64,000 nucleotides of DNA from an uncultured Lachnospiraceae bacterium (GTDB lineage Bacteria > Bacillota > Clostridia > Lachnospirales > Lachnospiraceae): positions 1 to 64,000 of the forward strand of contig CAMPAR010000005.1 of assembly GCA_946632055.1 (NCBI GenBank), written 5' to 3'. Position 1 is the first letter of the stretch; each line of letters begins with the position of its first letter. Position numbers and translations under genes: made by a program. Below, one piece after another: positions 42,910 through 51,629 of this stretch. The notes beneath the pieces were generated by a model that ran no database searches, was not told where the DNA came from, and saw only the letters and a list, made by a program, of their open reading frames with translations.

Positions 42910-43473
42910 ATGGATGACAGCAAAATCATCGGCCTGTACCTGGAGCGCAATGAGCAGGCGCTTCAGGAGACTTCTGACAAATACGGCGCCTATATCCGTA
43001 AAATCGCCGCGAATATTCTCGGAAATCACGAAGACACCGAAGAATGCGTCAATGACAGTCTGCTGAAGGCCTGGAACAGTATACCGCCGAATCACCCGAA
43101 ATCCCTTTCCGTGTATCTCGCGATGCTGACAAGAGAAGTCTCGATCGACGCCTATCGTAAAATCCGCCGGAAGAAGCGCTCGGGCTCGGAGTATCCGCTG
43201 TCCTATGAAGAGCTTTCCGAGGTCCTGCCGGATGAAAGCGACAATCCGGAGCGCGTCATCGACCGGCTCACCTTCGCCGGACTTCTGAACCGCTTCCTGT
43301 CAGAGCGCACGAAAGACGCGCGGACCATACTGGTCATGCGGTATTTCTATATGGATTCCATCCGGGATATCGCAGAAAGGATCGCTTCTTCCGAGGCCCG
43401 CGTGAAGACATTGCTTCACCGCGAGCGGAAGGCGCTGAAAAAATTCCTTGAAGAGGAGGGTTACAGACCATGA
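42910..43473 (+). CDS. RNA polymerase sigma-70 family (ECF-like) sigma factor
   Basis: YGAYIRKIAANILGNHEDTEECVNDSLLKAWNSIPP (region 2), DIAERIASSEARVKTLLHRERKALKKFLEEEG (region 4). Confidence 0.93.
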   Translation: MDDSKIIGLYLERNEQALQETSDKYGAYIRKIAANILGNHEDTEECVNDSLLKAWNSIPPNHPKSLSVYLAMLTREVSIDAYRKIRRKKRSGSEYPLSYEELSEVLPDESDNPERVIDRLTFAGLLNRFLSERTKDARTILVMRYFYMDSIRDIAERIASSEARVKTLLHRERKALKKFLEEEGYRP

Positions 43474-45305
43474 AAAACGATGAACTGATGGATGCCTGGA
43501 ATGATATCAATACGGAGTTTATCGAGGAGGCGGATCACCTCCGCCGGAACGGAAAAAGGAGCGCCGGAAGGAAGCGCCTTGTCACGCTCCTCGCGGCCGC
43601 TGCGGTACTGACTCTGGCGATCGGAACCGCGGCAGTCATGATTATCCGGAGTTCCACAAGAAGCGGAAATCCCGCCGCCGATTCCGGAAGTGCCGTAAGT
43701 TCCGGCGAAACCAGAGAGACAGTGACAGCAATCTCTGAAGAACCTTCTGAAGACCTGTCTACCGACACGGCAGCCGCCGTTTCCGACACGACAGAAGCGG
43801 AAGAGGGCTGGTGGGAGGCTGAAGGCGTCTATATAAAGTGTTACAGAAATGAGCTGGTTGAGATTGATAATCAGGGTCCCACCGTTATGCTTTCGCTGTC
43901 GGATGAAAGCCTCGGCGTTCTGTCCGGACTCACGACAGGCGACCGCATCCTTGTCAGGATCAGCGGCGAAATTCTGGAATCCTGGCCCGGCTCCTGCGGC
44001 CCCTGTGAAGTCGAAGCGCTCTCACAGGGCAGCTATAATGACATTCTGCCCACCATCGAACAGCTGAATGAAGCAGGCTGGAAAGTCATTTATGACGGAG
44101 ATCTGAATGAAGCCGTGACTGTACAGGAACGCGTGGAGCAGCTTCTCGACGAGCTGAACGCCAAATATGCGGATGAAGGCTTCAGCATTAATCTCGATGA
44201 CCGTCCTGTCGGCGATGACTGGTGGGAAGAACTCAGCATGATGTCTGTTGACGCTCTGAGAGAGTATCTTGAGAAGTTCTACACGGATGAGCAGTACAGG
44301 GTGCAGCAGCTGTCTCAGATTGCAGAGGAGTCCGGCGATACGACGGAGCTTCCCCTCTACCGCTATACCGGAGATGATCCGCTCCTTGGCGCGGTCACTG
44401 AATATTTTATCGACGAGTACAGAACAGAGCTCGAGACTCAGGCTGCAGAAGACCTGAAGGGCATAAATTATGTTGCGCTTCCCGCCTATATGATATTCAA
44501 GACAAAGGATCTTGACGACGGCCGCATCGCTGTCTACGGAAGCTTCTGGAATTTTGTCTACCGTCTCGAAATGACAACTCTGGTTCCCTGCAATCTGGCG
44601 CCCTGCGGAGAATTTCCCGGCGCCTGTGTCGTCACGCTGCGATCGGACCACGCAGAAGGAGGCGGCTGGGTCGTTGACGAAGTGGACCGCAACGACGGTA
44701 TGGGCAGCGATTACGCCACGGATATCTACAGATTCGCCGAGGGAGACGACGAGCTTCTGAACATGTACTTCTCAATCCTGAGTGCGGATGAGAACGGTCT
44801 TTCTCAGGTGCAGCTTGCGCTCGAGCAGGCGATTCGGGAATATGTCATCGTAAACAACCTGCCCATCGATTCCTACCAGTGGCGTGCCGGCATGAATGAG
44901 CCCCCAATCATGCTCTACGGCGCAGGAACCGACGAGCTTGAGGAAGCCGCGAAGGCCGCGGAAGAAGCCCGGGCTGCGGCAGAGCTTGAAGCCTCACAAA
45001 ACGAAGCGGAGCAGGAAGCGAGCAGGAATGAAGAAGAGTCCGACTCCGTTCCTCCCATCACGGAGATCGCAAGCCATACGATGAGTTCTCTCGCTGCCCG
45101 GCTGAAAGGCTGTACGCGCGAAGAGCTCCGCGCGGCCTGGGGCGAACCGCTCGAGTCCCTGGAATGGAATCCGGATTATCCGGTGGATATCTGGCGGATC
45201 GGCGAAGGCGCGGATCAGCTCTCCGTCGACGTCCAGTACGACAAAGACGGCAACGTGATTAACGGATATACTTACCTCGCTGCCGACCAGCCGACGATCT
45301 GGTAA
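43470..45305 (+). CDS. transmembrane anti-sigma-like protein with large extracytoplasmic region
   Basis: ATGA overlap with the sigma gene; short N-terminal cytoplasmic part, single TM (RLVTLLAAAAVLTLAIGTAAVMII), ~540 aa outside. Confidence 0.72.
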   Translation: MKNDELMDAWNDINTEFIEEADHLRRNGKRSAGRKRLVTLLAAAAVLTLAIGTAAVMIIRSSTRSGNPAADSGSAVSSGETRETVTAISEEPSEDLSTDTAAAVSDTTEAEEGWWEAEGVYIKCYRNELVEIDNQGPTVMLSLSDESLGVLSGLTTGDRILVRISGEILESWPGSCGPCEVEALSQGSYNDILPTIEQLNEAGWKVIYDGDLNEAVTVQERVEQLLDELNAKYADEGFSINLDDRPVGDDWWEELSMMSVDALREYLEKFYTDEQYRVQQLSQIAEESGDTTELPLYRYTGDDPLLGAVTEYFIDEYRTELETQAAEDLKGINYVALPAYMIFKTKDLDDGRIAVYGSFWNFVYRLEMTTLVPCNLAPCGEFPGACVVTLRSDHAEGGGWVVDEVDRNDGMGSDYATDIYRFAEGDDELLNMYFSILSADENGLSQVQLALEQAIREYVIVNNLPIDSYQWRAGMNEPPIMLYGAGTDELEEAAKAAEEARAAAELEASQNEAEQEASRNEEESDSVPPITEIASHTMSSLAARLKGCTREELRAAWGEPLESLEWNPDYPVDIWRIGEGADQLSVDVQYDKDGNVINGYTYLAADQPTIW

Positions 45306-45320
45306 GAGGACGACAGCCCT

Positions 45321-46415
45321 TCACTTCAGCGGTCTTCGAACCAATACATACTTCTCCGCACCGATCGTCAGGTCCTTCACATAGTTCTGAGTGACCTTGT
45401 GCTCATGAATCAGCGCACCGATCGAGAGCGCCCGGTTTTTCCGAAGCTCCTCCACGACCGCGTCCGCAAGCGCCGAGCCAAGACCCGGGTACTTCGCGTC
45501 CGCGCCGAGATAAAGAAGCACGTAGCGCTTTGCGTGCTTCTTTGTCCACAGGAGGCTGTGGATAAGCCGGAAAGAAAGCCCGCTGTAGAGCGCATTTCCG
45601 TAATCCGGCACGCAGATGAAGAAGCCGGCCATTTGGTTTTCCACATAGGCAAGCTTTACCATCTCAGGATTGACGATCAGCCGGTACGAAGCGAAAAGCT
45701 CCATGAACTTTTCTTCCGAAATCATCCGGAAGGCAGGAAAATCCGAATATAATTCGATCAGGAGACGATACACCCCGCGCATCGTCTCCTCATATTTTTT
45801 CAGGTCGAGATTCCGGATGACAAAGCCTTTTTCCGCAAACTGCCGGCGGCGCTTCTCCAGCTTTTTATTGTAGTAATCGGAGGGCACCGGGCTGAAATGA
45901 TTGGAGACATAGCGCTCCGAAACGCTGAAGCCGCAGCCCTCAAGAAGCAGGGCGTAATAGTTTAAATTGTACGGCTCCCCGGTGTAGGGCGGGACAATGA
46001 CCGCTCTCTTCCGAATGTCTGTCCGGTATATTTTCAGCCGGTAGCCGATCCAGAAAGAGGCATTCACGGGGCCGGTGAGCCCAGTAAGTCCCAGCGCCTC
46101 CGCCTTCTTTTCCACGGAAGAGAACAGCGCCTTTACGGCCTCAGGATCGTATTCGGACTCAAAGAACCCGAAATACCCTTCCTTGTCCTCCGTGTAAACC
46201 GTCAGGATGCACCGGGAAACCGGAACCCCGTCCCGCAGGACGACAAAGGGATATACGGTAAAATCACTGCTTAAAAGATGGCTTCCTTCGAGGATCTGCT
46301 CTTCGCACTTTCGGTCCTGCGGGCAGCTTTTTCGCGTATAAAGACGCTTCGGAAGCGCGAGAAAAGCCTTCCGAAGCGCCGGATTGTTTTCTGAAATCGT
46401 CCGATAATCTGACAT
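45321..46415 (-). CDS. GNAT-fold N-acyltransferase-like protein (YghO-like)
   Basis: GLTGPVNASFWIGYRLKI, PPYTGEPYNLNYYALLLEGCGFSVSERYVSNHF, YLGADAKYPGLGSALADAVVEEL. Confidence 0.7.
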   Translation of the reverse strand: MSDYRTISENNPALRKAFLALPKRLYTRKSCPQDRKCEEQILEGSHLLSSDFTVYPFVVLRDGVPVSRCILTVYTEDKEGYFGFFESEYDPEAVKALFSSVEKKAEALGLTGLTGPVNASFWIGYRLKIYRTDIRKRAVIVPPYTGEPYNLNYYALLLEGCGFSVSERYVSNHFSPVPSDYYNKKLEKRRRQFAEKGFVIRNLDLKKYEETMRGVYRLLIELYSDFPAFRMISEEKFMELFASYRLIVNPEMVKLAYVENQMAGFFICVPDYGNALYSGLSFRLIHSLLWTKKHAKRYVLLYLGADAKYPGLGSALADAVVEELRKNRALSIGALIHEHKVTQNYVKDLTIGAEKYVLVRRPLK

Positions 46416-46441
46416 ATCCGCTCTGCCTGTTTTTCTGTGTC

Positions 46442-48709
46442 TCATTCCTTGGCGCCGGAAGACTCCAGCACCTCGATCCGTCCGCTCTTCGTATCCAGCC
46501 GCACAAGATCGCCGTCGTGCAGCCGCTCGGTCGCCCCGCTCACATTGACGATCGAGGGCTTCTGAAGCTCGCGCGCGATGATCGCCGTGTGGCTCAGGAT
46601 CGAGCCGCGTTCCGCGATGATGCCGGCTGCGTCCCGTAAAAGATGCACCCAGCCGGGGTCCGTGGAGACCGTCACCAGGATTTTTCCCTTCGTGTCGTAC
46701 GCCTCCTTCGGATCACGGATGACGAGGACTTCCCCCTCCGCGCTTCCGTAGGATACCGGAATCCCCGAAAGCTCGCCGCTCTCCTGCGGCTTCCTGCTGC
46801 CAAGCCCGGGCTCCCTGTGCTCACAGATCCGTTCGGCAAAGACCAGCCGCTCGAAGGCCGGAAGATTCTTCTGGAACTCCGCCTCCTGCTTTCTTTCCGC
46901 GACAAGCGCCTTCAGCGCTTTCCCGTCCGGAAGGGCTTCCGCGAAGATCTCGTCAAGCCGCAGGAACATCACGTCCCGGGCCTCCTCAAGCCGCCCTTCT
47001 TCCGCGAGAATCCTTCCGCTCTTCAGGATGATTTCCCGCATCACGCCGAAGAGCCTCGAGCGGTTCATTCGTGACATTTCCCGGTTCGCGATTCCGGTCT
47101 TCGCGCGCCTTAGCGCGAAGCCGTTCCCTTTTTTCTGTGGCTTCTTTTCTTCCGGCGCGGGCGGCTCTGTCTTGTCCTTTCTCGACTCATCCGGCCTTTC
47201 TGCGTTTGGATCATGCATCTCGATTTCGGTCAGGATCCAGCGCAGGTTCTCCGGATTCGTCCGCCAGGTCCGGGTCTCCAGCTTGAGATCCTCGACACAG
47301 CGGTCGCCCCAGCGCTCGATGTAGTCCGTAAAGGCCCGCTCGAAGGCCTCGCCCTCTCCTTTTTCCTTCCACAGCGCCTGAAGCGCCGAAAGCTCCTTTG
47401 AAGGCTTCATGCTCTCGAGATTCCCGACGTCCGCCAGGCTTTCCCGGTTCTTTTTCCCCGCGATCGCCGTCCACAGGAAGGTGTAGACGTCGTTCACGAG
47501 CGTAATGTCCCACTTTTCCGTGATTTCCAGAAGAAGCTTTTCATACAGCGCACGGAGCGCCTCCCGGCTGTCCGCGGCCGCAAGCTCCGCCCTCAGCGGC
47601 CTGATGCGCTCATCGAAATACCGGTTCAGCGCCGCCATGTCCTTCGGGCAGGAGAAGAGATAGTGGAAAAAGGACCTCGTGATCCGAAGCTTGGTCCGCG
47701 CCCCGGCCTTCACCCGGTCGGAAGTCACGAGCCGGTTCTTCACCCCGAGCGAATTCTGCCAGATTTCGATGATTTTTTTCGAGAAGGGCAGGAGCTCCAG
47801 AATGTCATACCAGCTGCTGATCCGGTAATAAATCCGCCCGTTTGCCGTGTCCACCATATGCCGCAGATTGTCGTCCATTTCCGACACGAGCGCTATGTCC
47901 TTCGAGAGCCGCAGGAGGCAGTTCCGGAAGACGTGATAGTAAATATCCTTCGCGAAGTCCTGCGTCACGGGGAGCGATACGCCGGGATAGCTCTCAACGA
48001 TATTGCTGGAGTCCAGCACGATCCGCTTTCCTTCGAAGGGAAGCGTCGTGATCGGGCGCGCCTGCAGGATGTAGAGACGATCGTCCGAGACCGCGAATTC
48101 AATATCCGCCGGGCAGCCGAGCAGGCCTTCGATCTTCTCTCCCGCGGCCATGAGCGCCTGAAATCCGCTCTCATGGATCTCCGGCGAATCCCCGCTCTTC
48201 ACGAACATCGACCGGTGGTCGTCGCGGTTGTAATAATAGGTCGTGACCGGCACCTCGTCCCGCACGACGCCCTCTCCGAGGCCTCTTCCGACGACAATCA
48301 CGCTTTCATTCAGGATGCCGGCCGGGTTGGCCGTAAAAAGCACGCCGGAGAGCCGGGGCTTCAGCATTTCCTGAATGACGACGCGCATACGCTTCGGCGC
48401 GTTTCCGCCTTCCGCCTCCTGGGCTCCCTTTTCCGCCGCTTCCCGGTACAGTCCGACATTTTCGGCTTCCGCACTTTTTAGGACCTTCCGGACCGCCTCT
48501 TTAACTTCCTCCCGGGGAACGTTCAGCACCGTATCGAACTGTCCGGCGTAGGACTCATGCGCCCCGTCTTCGGAGGCCGCGGAGGAGCGCACGGCAAAAA
48601 GCGCGGAGTCTGAGAAGGAGAGATCGATCTCCTCCTCAGACTCCACGACGATAAACGGCGGCACCGGAATGCCGTTCTCCTGCAATAATGTCAGATTCTT
48701 CGCTTTCAT
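46442..48709 (-). CDS. PEP/pyruvate-binding and PEP-utilising domain protein (PEP synthase / rifampin phosphotransferase-like architecture)
   Basis: FAVRSSAASEDGAHESYAGQFDTVLNV, VQEMLKPRLSGVLFTANP, DIEFAVSDDRLYILQARPIT, C-term ERGSILSHTAIIARELQKPSIVNV (swivelling His). Confidence 0.92.
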   Translation of the reverse strand: MKAKNLTLLQENGIPVPPFIVVESEEEIDLSFSDSALFAVRSSAASEDGAHESYAGQFDTVLNVPREEVKEAVRKVLKSAEAENVGLYREAAEKGAQEAEGGNAPKRMRVVIQEMLKPRLSGVLFTANPAGILNESVIVVGRGLGEGVVRDEVPVTTYYYNRDDHRSMFVKSGDSPEIHESGFQALMAAGEKIEGLLGCPADIEFAVSDDRLYILQARPITTLPFEGKRIVLDSSNIVESYPGVSLPVTQDFAKDIYYHVFRNCLLRLSKDIALVSEMDDNLRHMVDTANGRIYYRISSWYDILELLPFSKKIIEIWQNSLGVKNRLVTSDRVKAGARTKLRITRSFFHYLFSCPKDMAALNRYFDERIRPLRAELAAADSREALRALYEKLLLEITEKWDITLVNDVYTFLWTAIAGKKNRESLADVGNLESMKPSKELSALQALWKEKGEGEAFERAFTDYIERWGDRCVEDLKLETRTWRTNPENLRWILTEIEMHDPNAERPDESRKDKTEPPAPEEKKPQKKGNGFALRRAKTGIANREMSRMNRSRLFGVMREIILKSGRILAEEGRLEEARDVMFLRLDEIFAEALPDGKALKALVAERKQEAEFQKNLPAFERLVFAERICEHREPGLGSRKPQESGELSGIPVSYGSAEGEVLVIRDPKEAYDTKGKILVTVSTDPGWVHLLRDAAGIIAERGSILSHTAIIARELQKPSIVNVSGATERLHDGDLVRLDTKSGRIEVLESSGAKE

Positions 48710-48710
48710 A

Positions 48711-49622
48711 TTACCCGATCTTCCCGAAAATCAGAAAGGCTATAATCGTCAGTACCATCGTTGATTCCTGCAGATAGGTATAAAGCTCCACCTTTTTTAC
48801 CAGCTTGAAGCGCTCCGGATTCTGCATGAACTGAATGAATTTCCAGGTCATCCAGGACACGAGAAGAAGCAGCACGCCGACCGAAATCTTATTCAGGTTC
48901 CAGACCAGGATGAAATTGGTGATAATGTCCACGATCGTGACGATCGTGACGAAAAGCGTGCTCTTCTTATAGCCGAACAGCTTCGAATAGGTCACATACT
49001 CCGTCTCGTCCTTCGGCGCGCGGATCTTCCGGGAAACCTCCCAGATCAGCGCCGGGAAATAGAGCGTGAAGCAGGCCAGCACATTGATCAGATCGAAGGG
49101 CCGGATATTGTACTTGATCACCGTGAAGGAGATCACATAGATATTGATCAGAAGCTGCACCGGATTGTGCGTGACGAGCGCGAGCGGCAGGGACTTCGCG
49201 ATCTTGTGCTTCTGGAAGAACCAGACCGCCATGAGAGACCCGTAGGTGTACAGGATGATGCAGAAGATAAAATTATTCATGAAGATCCCGTTCAGCACCA
49301 GCGTCACGGCGATCAGAATGCTCACGAAGATCGCCAGATCCTTCTTGTGCACGCGGCCCGAGGGAAGCGGGCGCTCCGCAAAGAGCCGGCAGTCCAGCTC
49401 GTAATCCTTGAAATCATCCGCGATCCGGAGCCAGAAAAGGAAGCTGAAGACCGTAAAGCCGCAGATCACTTCCTGAATGCCGAGATGAAAATCCGTCACC
49501 CCGTGATTCAGCAGGACGATAAAATGAATCTCCGCAAAGACAAGAAAGCCGACAAAAAGCCTCGGAATGATCGGAAACATTTCCTTCTGGTAAATGTACA
49601 GTCGTTTCAGTGCCGCACCCAT
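48711..49622 (-). CDS. UbiA family prenyltransferase-like membrane protein
   Basis: Multi-TM, LRIADDFKDYELDCRLFAERPLPSGRV first Asp-rich motif, SRKIRAPKDETEYVTY second; start at MGAALKRLY with aggagg RBS. Confidence 0.85.
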   Translation of the reverse strand: MGAALKRLYIYQKEMFPIIPRLFVGFLVFAEIHFIVLLNHGVTDFHLGIQEVICGFTVFSFLFWLRIADDFKDYELDCRLFAERPLPSGRVHKKDLAIFVSILIAVTLVLNGIFMNNFIFCIILYTYGSLMAVWFFQKHKIAKSLPLALVTHNPVQLLINIYVISFTVIKYNIRPFDLINVLACFTLYFPALIWEVSRKIRAPKDETEYVTYSKLFGYKKSTLFVTIVTIVDIITNFILVWNLNKISVGVLLLLVSWMTWKFIQFMQNPERFKLVKKVELYTYLQESTMVLTIIAFLIFGKIG

Positions 49623-49633
49623 TGTTTTTCCTC

Positions 49634-50215
49634 CTATAAGCTTTTCCTTGCGTGCAGTGCCACGAGAAGCAGATTGACCGCAATGTGCACCGCCGCCCCG
49701 AGAATCACATACTGAACGAGCGCCGGGAACCGGGCATCCGAAAAGATACCGATGACAATCGCGCACCCGATCAGCGAATCGATCTGGTCCAGAATAAAAA
49801 AGAACGCCCCCCTGAGGCCGCCAGCATGAGCGCTCGGCGGAATATGCATCCGGCGTTTGAGAAAGGAATTCGGCAGTTCAAAGAGCGCGTAGGAAAGACC
49901 GAAAAGAGCGCCGATCATCAGATTGTAGGGGATGGTGTTCTGATGCAGGGAATACATCTGGTTGTAGGCTTCCAGCCCAAGCGCCCGCGAAAACAGTCCC
50001 ACAAGGAGCTGCGCCGCCGTGCAGAAAACAAGATAGGCCAGCATCCCGATCCAGGTTTTATGGTCTCCGAAAATCCGCTCGCCGCCGAGCATTTTCCCGC
50101 CGTCCACGGGGCTTCTGTGCGCCCTGAAAAAAGCGGTTTTCGTAAACAGCACCACGGACGCCGCGCCAAGGACCACGGGGAGCATCGTGAACAGCATGAT
50201 GAGGATCCGCATCAT
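49634..50215 (-). CDS. CDP-archaeol synthase-like (CarS/DUF46) membrane protein
   Basis: SPVDGGKMLGGERIFGDHKTWIGML, ALFELPNSFLKRRMHIPPSA, FFILDQIDSLIGC. Confidence 0.85.
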   Translation of the reverse strand: MMRILIMLFTMLPVVLGAASVVLFTKTAFFRAHRSPVDGGKMLGGERIFGDHKTWIGMLAYLVFCTAAQLLVGLFSRALGLEAYNQMYSLHQNTIPYNLMIGALFGLSYALFELPNSFLKRRMHIPPSAHAGGLRGAFFFILDQIDSLIGCAIVIGIFSDARFPALVQYVILGAAVHIAVNLLLVALHARKSL

Positions 50216-50613
50216 CCGGCGCCTCCCGACGCCAGCTTTATGATCTGGAGTACAATAAAAATGATTTCGCTGATAAAGAACGACAGAGAACTCATGAGAA
50301 CCGCCCCGGCCGCGAGATCCTTGATCACCCGGATATCCGGGCGGAGCTCGGTGGAAAAGCTGTCGCAGATATGCTCGATCGCGGTGTTCACGACTTCAAA
50401 GGCAAAGGTGACTGAGATCGTGATGATCGCCGTGATATGCACATACAGCGGCACCCGAAGCACCAGATTGATCACGAGAAAAATCATCGCGATCACAAAA
50501 TATCTTCTGAAATTTTTCTCTGTCCGGAGGGCGTAGCCCGCACCGCGGAAGGCGCAGCGCACCGCTTCCAGAAAATTTTTGTTCTTCAATCCTCTTACCT
50601 CTGTTCCAGACAC
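50212..50613 (-). CDS. diacylglycerol kinase / undecaprenol kinase (DgkA-like) family protein
   Basis: FLEAVRCAFRGAGYALRTEKNFRRYF, FEVVNTAIEHICD, IKDLAAGAVLMSS; true start may be TTG at 50589. Confidence 0.92.
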   Translation of the reverse strand: MSGTEVRGLKNKNFLEAVRCAFRGAGYALRTEKNFRRYFVIAMIFLVINLVLRVPLYVHITAIITISVTFAFEVVNTAIEHICDSFSTELRPDIRVIKDLAAGAVLMSSLSFFISEIIFIVLQIIKLASGGAG

Positions 50614-50858
50614 CCCGTGCAGAAAAAGTGCCGGCCCTCTTCGGCCGCGTCCCTGAACACCGCGAGAAAGCCCGCTTCAAAGGGCTTGCCGCTCCGAACG
50701 GCCGTCACGCAGCTGTCCTCGGAAAGCTCTGTCAGAACCTCATAGAGCGCGTCCAGATTCTTTCCGTAATAATCCGGAAAATCCAGATGATCCGCCAGAT
50801 ATTCATGAACCTCGCTTGCGCTTTCAAAATCGTGGAAATCCACCATGACTGCTTTCAT
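50595..50858 (-). CDS. barstar family ribonuclease inhibitor
   Basis: VDFHDFESASEVHEYLADHLDFPDYYGKNLDALYEVLTE, barstar signature; adjacent to a barnase gene. Confidence 0.93.
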   Translation of the reverse strand: MKAVMVDFHDFESASEVHEYLADHLDFPDYYGKNLDALYEVLTELSEDSCVTAVRSGKPFEAGFLAVFRDAAEEGRHFFCTGCLEQR

Positions 50859-50924
50859 TATAGCCCTTTCCTCTTTCTCTGTCAAATACGGCTCTTATCG
50901 CCGGCCGGCCGGTCTTTTTTGGGG

Positions 50925-51629
50925 TCAGTACAGCTGCTCAAAGCTTTCGTAATGATCGTCGGTGTAGAAAATCAGCCCGTCATTCGAGTAGACAATCCGC
51001 TTGGCGTTCCGCTTCTTTCCGCCGTAGTCGATGTCGCATTCAAAGTACTTCCGGCCCTTGGCGGTCGGAAGCAGGTTTTCGTAATTGCCGAAGCGGCTGC
51101 CGCCGATGGACATTCCCGGCGCAACCTCCCAGAGATTGCCCCAGCTCGACACCCAGCCGAGGTCTTCCGCGTCGTTCTTCGTGATGTAGTTCGACGGAAG
51201 ATGCCCGTAGGCGTGAATATACAGGGCTACGTGATCCTTATCGGTATACTCGCCGTCCTCCGTGACGGTAATCCCGTTCTCGGTGACGGAGCCGTCGTCT
51301 TCCGGAGGCGCCTGTGTGGAATCCTCCGCAAGTTCCGTCTCGGCGTCTTCCTCATCCCCGGCGTCTTCGGTTTCCTGTTCCTCCAACGTGCTGCTTTCTT
51401 CCGAAGCCGTCTCTTCCTCCCGCGCAGAAGTTTCCGCCGCATCCGTCACGGCCTCGGTCTCCGTACCGGAAGAATTCCGGGTCTCCGCCGCCGCCGTCGT
51501 GAAGGCCAGCGTCCCGCTGTCCGCTCCCGCGTTCTCTCCTCTCCCGCGCACAAGGAACCAGATCCCCGCGATCGCAAGAACCGCCGCAATTAAAATCAGT
51601 AATACCCGCTGCTGCTTCTTGTTTTTCAT
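50925..51629 (-). CDS. barnase-family ribonuclease with N-terminal membrane anchor/signal and Ser/Thr/Glu linker
   Basis: C-term LPSNYITKNDAEDLGWVSSWGNLWEVAPGMSIGGSRFGNYENLLP...FECDIDYGGKKRNAKRIVYSNDGLIFYTDDHYESFEQLY; Lys, Glu, Arg, His catalytic equivalents of barnase retained. Confidence 0.94.
   Translation of the reverse strand: MKNKKQQRVLLILIAAVLAIAGIWFLVRGRGENAGADSGTLAFTTAAAETRNSSGTETEAVTDAAETSAREEETASEESSTLEEQETEDAGDEEDAETELAEDSTQAPPEDDGSVTENGITVTEDGEYTDKDHVALYIHAYGHLPSNYITKNDAEDLGWVSSWGNLWEVAPGMSIGGSRFGNYENLLPTAKGRKYFECDIDYGGKKRNAKRIVYSNDGLIFYTDDHYESFEQLY

Follow-up and report, generated by a model that had tools for sequence, protein, structure and literature searches.

What would be made by five closely packed genes that set a UbiA-like protein beside a DgkA-type lipid kinase, a CarS-like cytidylyltransferase, a dikinase and a GNAT acyltransferase in a member of the Lachnospiraceae? 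The genes lie on the minus strand of the window (the whole stretch of DNA analysed, 64,000 nucleotides), and an initial annotation had read them as a complete pathway for an unusual membrane lipid or prenyl-linked head group. The module is real, conserved and coherent. We consider the chances close to even that it is a dedicated membrane-lipid operon, in which a core would build a two-chain lipid alcohol other than diacylglycerol (DAG) and further modules would add a head group, with substrates and an order of core steps that we infer. The locus comprises the following features:

50857..50885, minus strand: promoter-like site TTGACA-17-TATAAT upstream of the DgkA gene, a 12/12 match to the sigma-70 consensus alone.
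50212..50613, minus strand: DgkA-family lipid kinase (Pfam PF01219, DAGK_prokar, 5.6e-24).
49634..50215, minus strand: predicted CarS-like CTP:lipid-phosphate cytidylyltransferase (Pfam PF01864, 3.1e-11; PRK04032, 1e-18).
48711..49622, minus strand: UbiA-superfamily membrane protein, 303 aa (PRK13592 group, 3.4e-122).
46442..48709, minus strand: Rph/PEP-synthase-type dikinase (PPDK_N, 1.9e-35; PEP-utilizers, 2.7e-22).
45321..46445, minus strand: predicted YghO-family tandem-GNAT acyltransferase (BLASTP to E. coli YghO, 9e-14).

The overlaps and near-zero gaps claimed for the five genes were confirmed together with their coordinates, the spacing being -4 bp between DgkA and CarS, +11 bp between CarS and UbiA, +1 bp between UbiA and the dikinase, and -4 bp between the dikinase and the GNAT gene. 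The UbiA gene starts at the ATG at 49622, which has a strong AGGAGG ahead of it; the longer ORF reaching to 49766 is an open frame only. Judged by its match to the consensus, the promoter-like site may drive the operon. It overlies the first codons of the barstar ORF as listed, whose TTG start coincides with the -35 box itself, so that the listed start is probably wrong. Directly upstream of DgkA, a gene for a barnase-type ribonuclease (PF00545, 2.4e-18) and then the barstar gene (PF01337) occupy 50595-51629 on the minus strand, with a 19-bp overlap between barstar and DgkA in the listed frames; both were rejected as module members, since L002 and L003, the nearest relatives, are the only ones to share them. 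At the other end, the plus strand at 42910-45305 carries an ECF-type sigma factor gene followed by a gene for a large predicted membrane protein with no Pfam match, which sits in an anti-sigma-like position and converges on the GNAT gene, whose end lies 15 bp away.

A scan of GTDB genomes with the UbiA-like protein returned 214 loci; 80 of these were retained for examination. UbiA and the dikinase occurred together in every one of them (within 150 bp of each other in 74) and all module genes lay on one strand, indicating that the linkage is not due to chance and bearing out the proposal that a lipid pathway module recurs across Clostridia. Gut and rumen carriers include Roseburia, Oribacterium, Butyrivibrio, Ruminococcus and Acetatifactor, and Pseudobacteroides cellulosolvens is a further carrier. 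The GNAT was found in 71 of the 80 loci, several of the nine exceptions being short contigs, and CarS in 67; an AMP-dependent acyl ligase was present in 32, and some loci have UbiA, dikinase, acyl ligase and GNAT with no CarS nearby. Most relatives carry a CDP-alcohol phosphatidyltransferase of the PssA type (Pss) and a phosphatidylserine decarboxylase (Psd) between CarS and UbiA. One or both of these genes belong to the operon in 49 of the 80 loci, and 19 of the 67 loci with CarS have neither in the stretch examined, some of them being truncated. The window operon contains no Pss, Psd or acyl ligase, so the set seen there falls short of the complete pathway that had been claimed for it. For the distribution of the module, a phylum-wide search (1/299) was too thin within the class and was replaced by samples of the family (13/249) and of the class (10/388). 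No description of the gene set was found in the open-access literature searched, and it is apparently undescribed.

The UbiA-like protein scores slightly below the Pfam cut-off for its family (32.9 against 34.2 bits, 5.2e-8), and its AlphaFold model (pLDDT 84.7) has the multi-helix UbiA fold. The closest solved structure is an archaeal DGGGP synthase (6m31; probability 1.00, TM 0.64/0.69, E 1.3e-3), which is also the nearest enzyme by sequence profile. The invariant D69-x3-D73-x3-D77 fits the first Asp-rich motif, (N/D)DxxDxxxD; the Asp positions of this DDFKDYELD segment are conserved in 80 of 80 sequences. On comparison with the DGGGP synthase text REIVKDFEDMEGD, the second Asp-rich motif, DxxxD, is absent, and its site holds an invariant E195-x2-R198-K199-I200-x-A202-P203-x2-E206 instead, which takes the family form WE-x2-RKI(R/K)AP-x-(D/E)E(T/N)(E/D)Y-x-TYS. 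These residues are counted from the ATG at 49622, and an alternative numbering is 6 higher; in the latter, the acidic residues D/E211, E212 and E/D214 could stand in for motif II. The invariance of the replacement speaks for an altered substrate or metal site rather than for decay, and the departure from the canonical DxxxD makes the use of a prenyl diphosphate uncertain. Of the two refuting conditions named in the initial annotation, lack of recurrence is strongly contradicted by the loci above, and degeneration of active sites was seen in none of DgkA, CarS and the dikinase, which keep their signature residues, whereas UbiA has exchanged motif II for an invariant signature of its own. One UbiA homolog (G402:C70:733-1629) has a single in-frame TAA in the assembly.

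The dikinase combines an ATP-grasp domain with a phospho-histidine swivelling domain. Only PPDK_N and the mobile domain were matched; the protein ends after the His domain, with no C-terminal PEP/pyruvate barrel, and it scores under every PEP-synthase cut-off. The catalytic H707 lies in an SHTAI motif, and K2, R41, E204, Q216 and R218 are conserved as well. Its closest solved structures, 5fbs and 5hv2 (about 3e-74), were deposited as PEP synthase and represent the rifampin phosphotransferase Rph. The window dikinase shares the domain make-up and the ATP-grasp and phospho-His residues of these proteins but has a central domain of its own and is tied to UbiA; no link to rifamycin resistance was seen.

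Since the GNAT gene product has no Pfam match, its identity rests on similarity to YghO and on the AlphaFold model. The BLASTP alignment to E. coli YghO extends over 375 columns, giving full-length similarity, hhalign returned 98.6%, and the model (pLDDT 89.3) matches tandem-GNAT structures with E 1.7e-12. Proteins of the YghO/CC_1154 group are proposed (dihydro)ceramide N-acyltransferases (PMC9386255, PMC11324152). In the family sample (n = 249), high-scoring orthologs (E < 1e-100) were confined to the UbiA carriers, exactly 13 genomes. A second, more distant family of YghO-like GNATs occurs in the window genome and in Lachnospiraceae without UbiA (L089 2883-4034; L091 5545-6669). These paralogs in other Lachnospiraceae were rejected as instances of the module, as they lie beside PlsX or PlsX-like genes (in one case directly) or housekeeping genes, without UbiA.

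A search of the assembly found no DAGK_prokar gene other than that of DgkA. The catalytic-site positions E73, N76, E80, K98 and D99 can be aligned with E. coli DgkA and are kept in at least 97% of 51 sequences. In Gram-positive bacteria, members of the DgkA family often phosphorylate undecaprenol rather than DAG. CarS scores 44 bits against a PF01864 cut-off of 22 and retains its signature residues. A lipid kinase accompanies CarS in 66 of 67 loci, the exception being a 2.4-kb contig. In these 66 loci the single kinase is either DgkA (52) or a second dikinase, PEPD2 (14); the two never occurred together, and among the 80 loci each was found only where CarS was present. This pattern suggests that whatever fills the slot is a lipid-alcohol kinase; the DgkA/PEPD2 swap maps to one event on the UbiA tree, so the mutual exclusion carries little independent replication. 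The window genome has a separate, normal CdsA on contig C44, and archaeal CarS is reported to favour lipid phosphates of isoprenoid type to phosphatidic acid (PMC9385802). A cell with CdsA needs no second pair of kinase and CTP-dependent enzyme for phosphatidic acid, which, taken with the archaeal preference, favours the reading that the core makes a non-standard lipid alcohol.

The head-group enzymes point in a similar direction. All 13 UbiA-carrying genomes of the family sample have Psd, compared with 91 of 249 overall (p = 1.2e-6, a value that ignores the shared ancestry of these related carriers). Nine of them have Psd next to UbiA, and four, the window genome included, have a Psd of the housekeeping clade alone. 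A branch with 99% support splits operonic from housekeeping Psds, and one of the nine genomes, G414, contains both kinds, as if the operonic Psd had its own substrate. The window genome carries a housekeeping-type Pss-Psd pair at C14:5816-7281; that this is the operon pair relocated was rejected, because the Psd groups with the housekeeping ones.

A second class of operon exchanges the head-group enzymes. UbiA, dikinase, BtaA, a kinase-like protein, GNAT and acyl ligase are found in varying order in L098, L113, L114 and L115. On a plasmid of Roseinatronobacter, a distant UbiA is followed by the dikinase, BtaA (DUF3419), a membrane protein, GNAT and acyl ligase; this alphaproteobacterial relative shows that the core is portable. 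L113/L114 and L115, from two further clostridial families, have the same set. The UbiA proteins of both classes share D69, D73, D77, E195, R198, K199 and E206, and the motif I Asp positions are common to the BtaA-class proteins; the dikinases have their catalytic residues in common, and the GNATs share W132, Y135, R136, E157 and N160. The membrane protein of the BtaA class contains the motifs RK..H....G and ADS.AALIG..YG....KS.EG, which recall phytol/dolichol kinases where Pfam is silent, a lead only. The BtaA-family protein recalls betaine-lipid synthesis, from which this class differs in that the loci read showed no BtaB methylase and that UbiA, the dikinase, the kinase-like membrane protein, GNAT and acyl ligase are linked to it. 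BtaA has DAG as its known substrate, and its presence in place of the other head-group enzymes fits a core that makes a non-standard lipid alcohol. Probably, the conserved core makes or modifies a DAG-like lipid to which interchangeable modules add the head group.

In the pathway we propose, the core would consist of the UbiA-like enzyme, the Rph-type dikinase, the YghO-type acyltransferase and, in many relatives, the AMP-dependent acyl ligase. The dikinase would phosphorylate or pyrophosphorylate a small acceptor or a prenol, UbiA would attach a prenyl-like chain to that acceptor, and the GNAT would supply the fatty acyl chain, probably in amide linkage. DgkA, or PEPD2 in some lineages, would then phosphorylate the free hydroxyl of the lipid alcohol and CarS would activate the lipid phosphate with CTP. 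Pss would add serine to the CDP-lipid and Psd would decarboxylate the serine head to phosphoethanolamine, steps for which the housekeeping pair on C14 would serve in the window genome; the end product is likely a phosphoethanolamine-headed lipid, an outcome that the initial annotation did not foresee. In the second class, the BtaA-family enzyme would take the place of the phosphoethanolamine branch and give an amino-acid head group. The bolder claim, that this is a new class of bacterial membrane lipid whose backbone is made by UbiA, an Rph-type dikinase and a YghO-type acyltransferase without the usual PlsX/Y/C route, with one chain prenyl-like and the other an acyl chain in amide linkage, and completed by a kinase, CarS and either Pss and Psd or BtaA, is in our estimate tentative and somewhat unlikely. 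Should the core make a backbone other than DAG, common gut bacteria would contain a lipid class still without a name, and this would bear on membrane chemistry, the lipid divide and host-lipid signalling. In either case, the module gives a pathway context to four unassigned enzyme groups: UbiA with a changed second motif, the non-PEP dikinase, the second dikinase that replaces DgkA, and a GNAT of the YghO type found apart from sphingolipid synthesis.

The main rival places the action of the core on the head group. The operon would make ordinary phosphatidylethanolamine (PE), replaced by a homoserine lipid where the operon is of the BtaA class; the GNAT and acyl ligase would N-acylate the free amine to a lipid of the N-acyl-PE type, and UbiA and the dikinase would add a further group. 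Both modules end in a lipid with a free primary amine, and the BtaA-class loci read showed no BtaB; YghO-family GNATs are proposed N-acyltransferases, and UbiA is restricted to Psd-positive genomes in the family sample. The GNAT could act on the head-group amine rather than on the backbone. What this account leaves unexplained is a dedicated lipid kinase together with CarS in a genome that has a normal CdsA, and the separate clade of operonic Psds, and we regard it as unlikely, if less so than the alternatives that follow.

Ordinary PE synthesis would have DgkA recycle DAG, CarS replace CdsA, and Pss and Psd make PE, while UbiA, the dikinase and the GNAT produced a separate small prenylated metabolite. 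The head-group enzymes all belong to standard families, the Pss and Psd steps are those of the bacterial CdsA-PssA-Psd pathway, as in the housekeeping pair of the window genome, and the loci that lack a nearby CarS would suit such a division. However, UbiA, the dikinase and the GNAT are linked one-to-one with Psd in 13 of 13 genomes, and the BtaA class pairs the same core with a different lipid head-group enzyme. The operon also departs from the PE pathway in having CarS instead of CdsA, its own lipid kinase, a separate Psd clade and the linked core. We hold this explanation to be distinctly improbable.

The likeness to archaeal ether-lipid synthesis noted in the initial annotation finds some support in UbiA and CarS. 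The archaeal phospholipid pathway (GGGPS, DGGGPS, CarS, archaetidylserine synthase, Asd) occurs in FCB-group bacteria (PMC7852524). The operon group resembles it in a UbiA nearest to DGGGPS in profile and fold, a CarS-like enzyme, a CDP-alcohol transferase and a Psd-type decarboxylase; these four steps match in kind a route in which UbiA acts as DGGGP synthase, CarS forms CDP-archaeol, and Pss and Psd yield archaetidylethanolamine. Yet the lack of a GGGP synthase, already remarked for the window, extends to the whole genome: PF01884 had no match in this assembly (90% complete), whereas the same search was positive in 7 archaeal and Bacillus controls. Motif II of UbiA is unlike that of DGGGP synthase, the lipid kinase would be superfluous, and neither the YghO-type acyltransferase nor the acyl ligase has a place in that pathway; the dikinase is a further difference from it. 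The diether pathway was rejected for want of GGGPS, and we rate it as very unlikely.

A sphingolipid-like phosphoethanolamine ceramide, with the GNAT as ceramide synthase, DgkA as ceramide kinase and CarS as CDP-ceramide synthase, is slightly less probable still: the GNAT and acyl ligase recall the Caulobacter/E. coli ceramide set (spt, cerR/epi, aca/yghO/CC_1154, aasR; CC_1160 kinase, CC_1161), and the proposed Caulobacter pathway likewise has a lipid kinase and then a CTP-transferase-like protein (PMC11324152), but the reading was rejected because no SPT-type enzyme was found in the genome (serine palmitoyltransferase; best score with the alpha-oxoamine synthase model TIGR01825, 17.8 bits against a cut-off of 535), and the operon group lacks a ketosphinganine reductase and has UbiA, a dikinase, Pss and Psd, the first two of which would be left unused.

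Dikinase genes also showed variation among the loci retrieved. Those of L018 (9468-10571, Roseburia inulinivorans) and L127 (7147-9540) are in pieces, through frameshift, decay or sequencing error. Related dikinases on Streptomyces and Rubrobacter plasmids were rejected as members of the module, their contexts being AfsA-type or arsenic genes. In the Streptomyces plasmid clusters (L100 5409-9806, L101 4669-9423), the dikinase lies with AfsA-type proteins and with an isoprenylcysteine-methyltransferase-like protein. This is a hint that dikinases of the group also serve butenolide-type signalling pathways.
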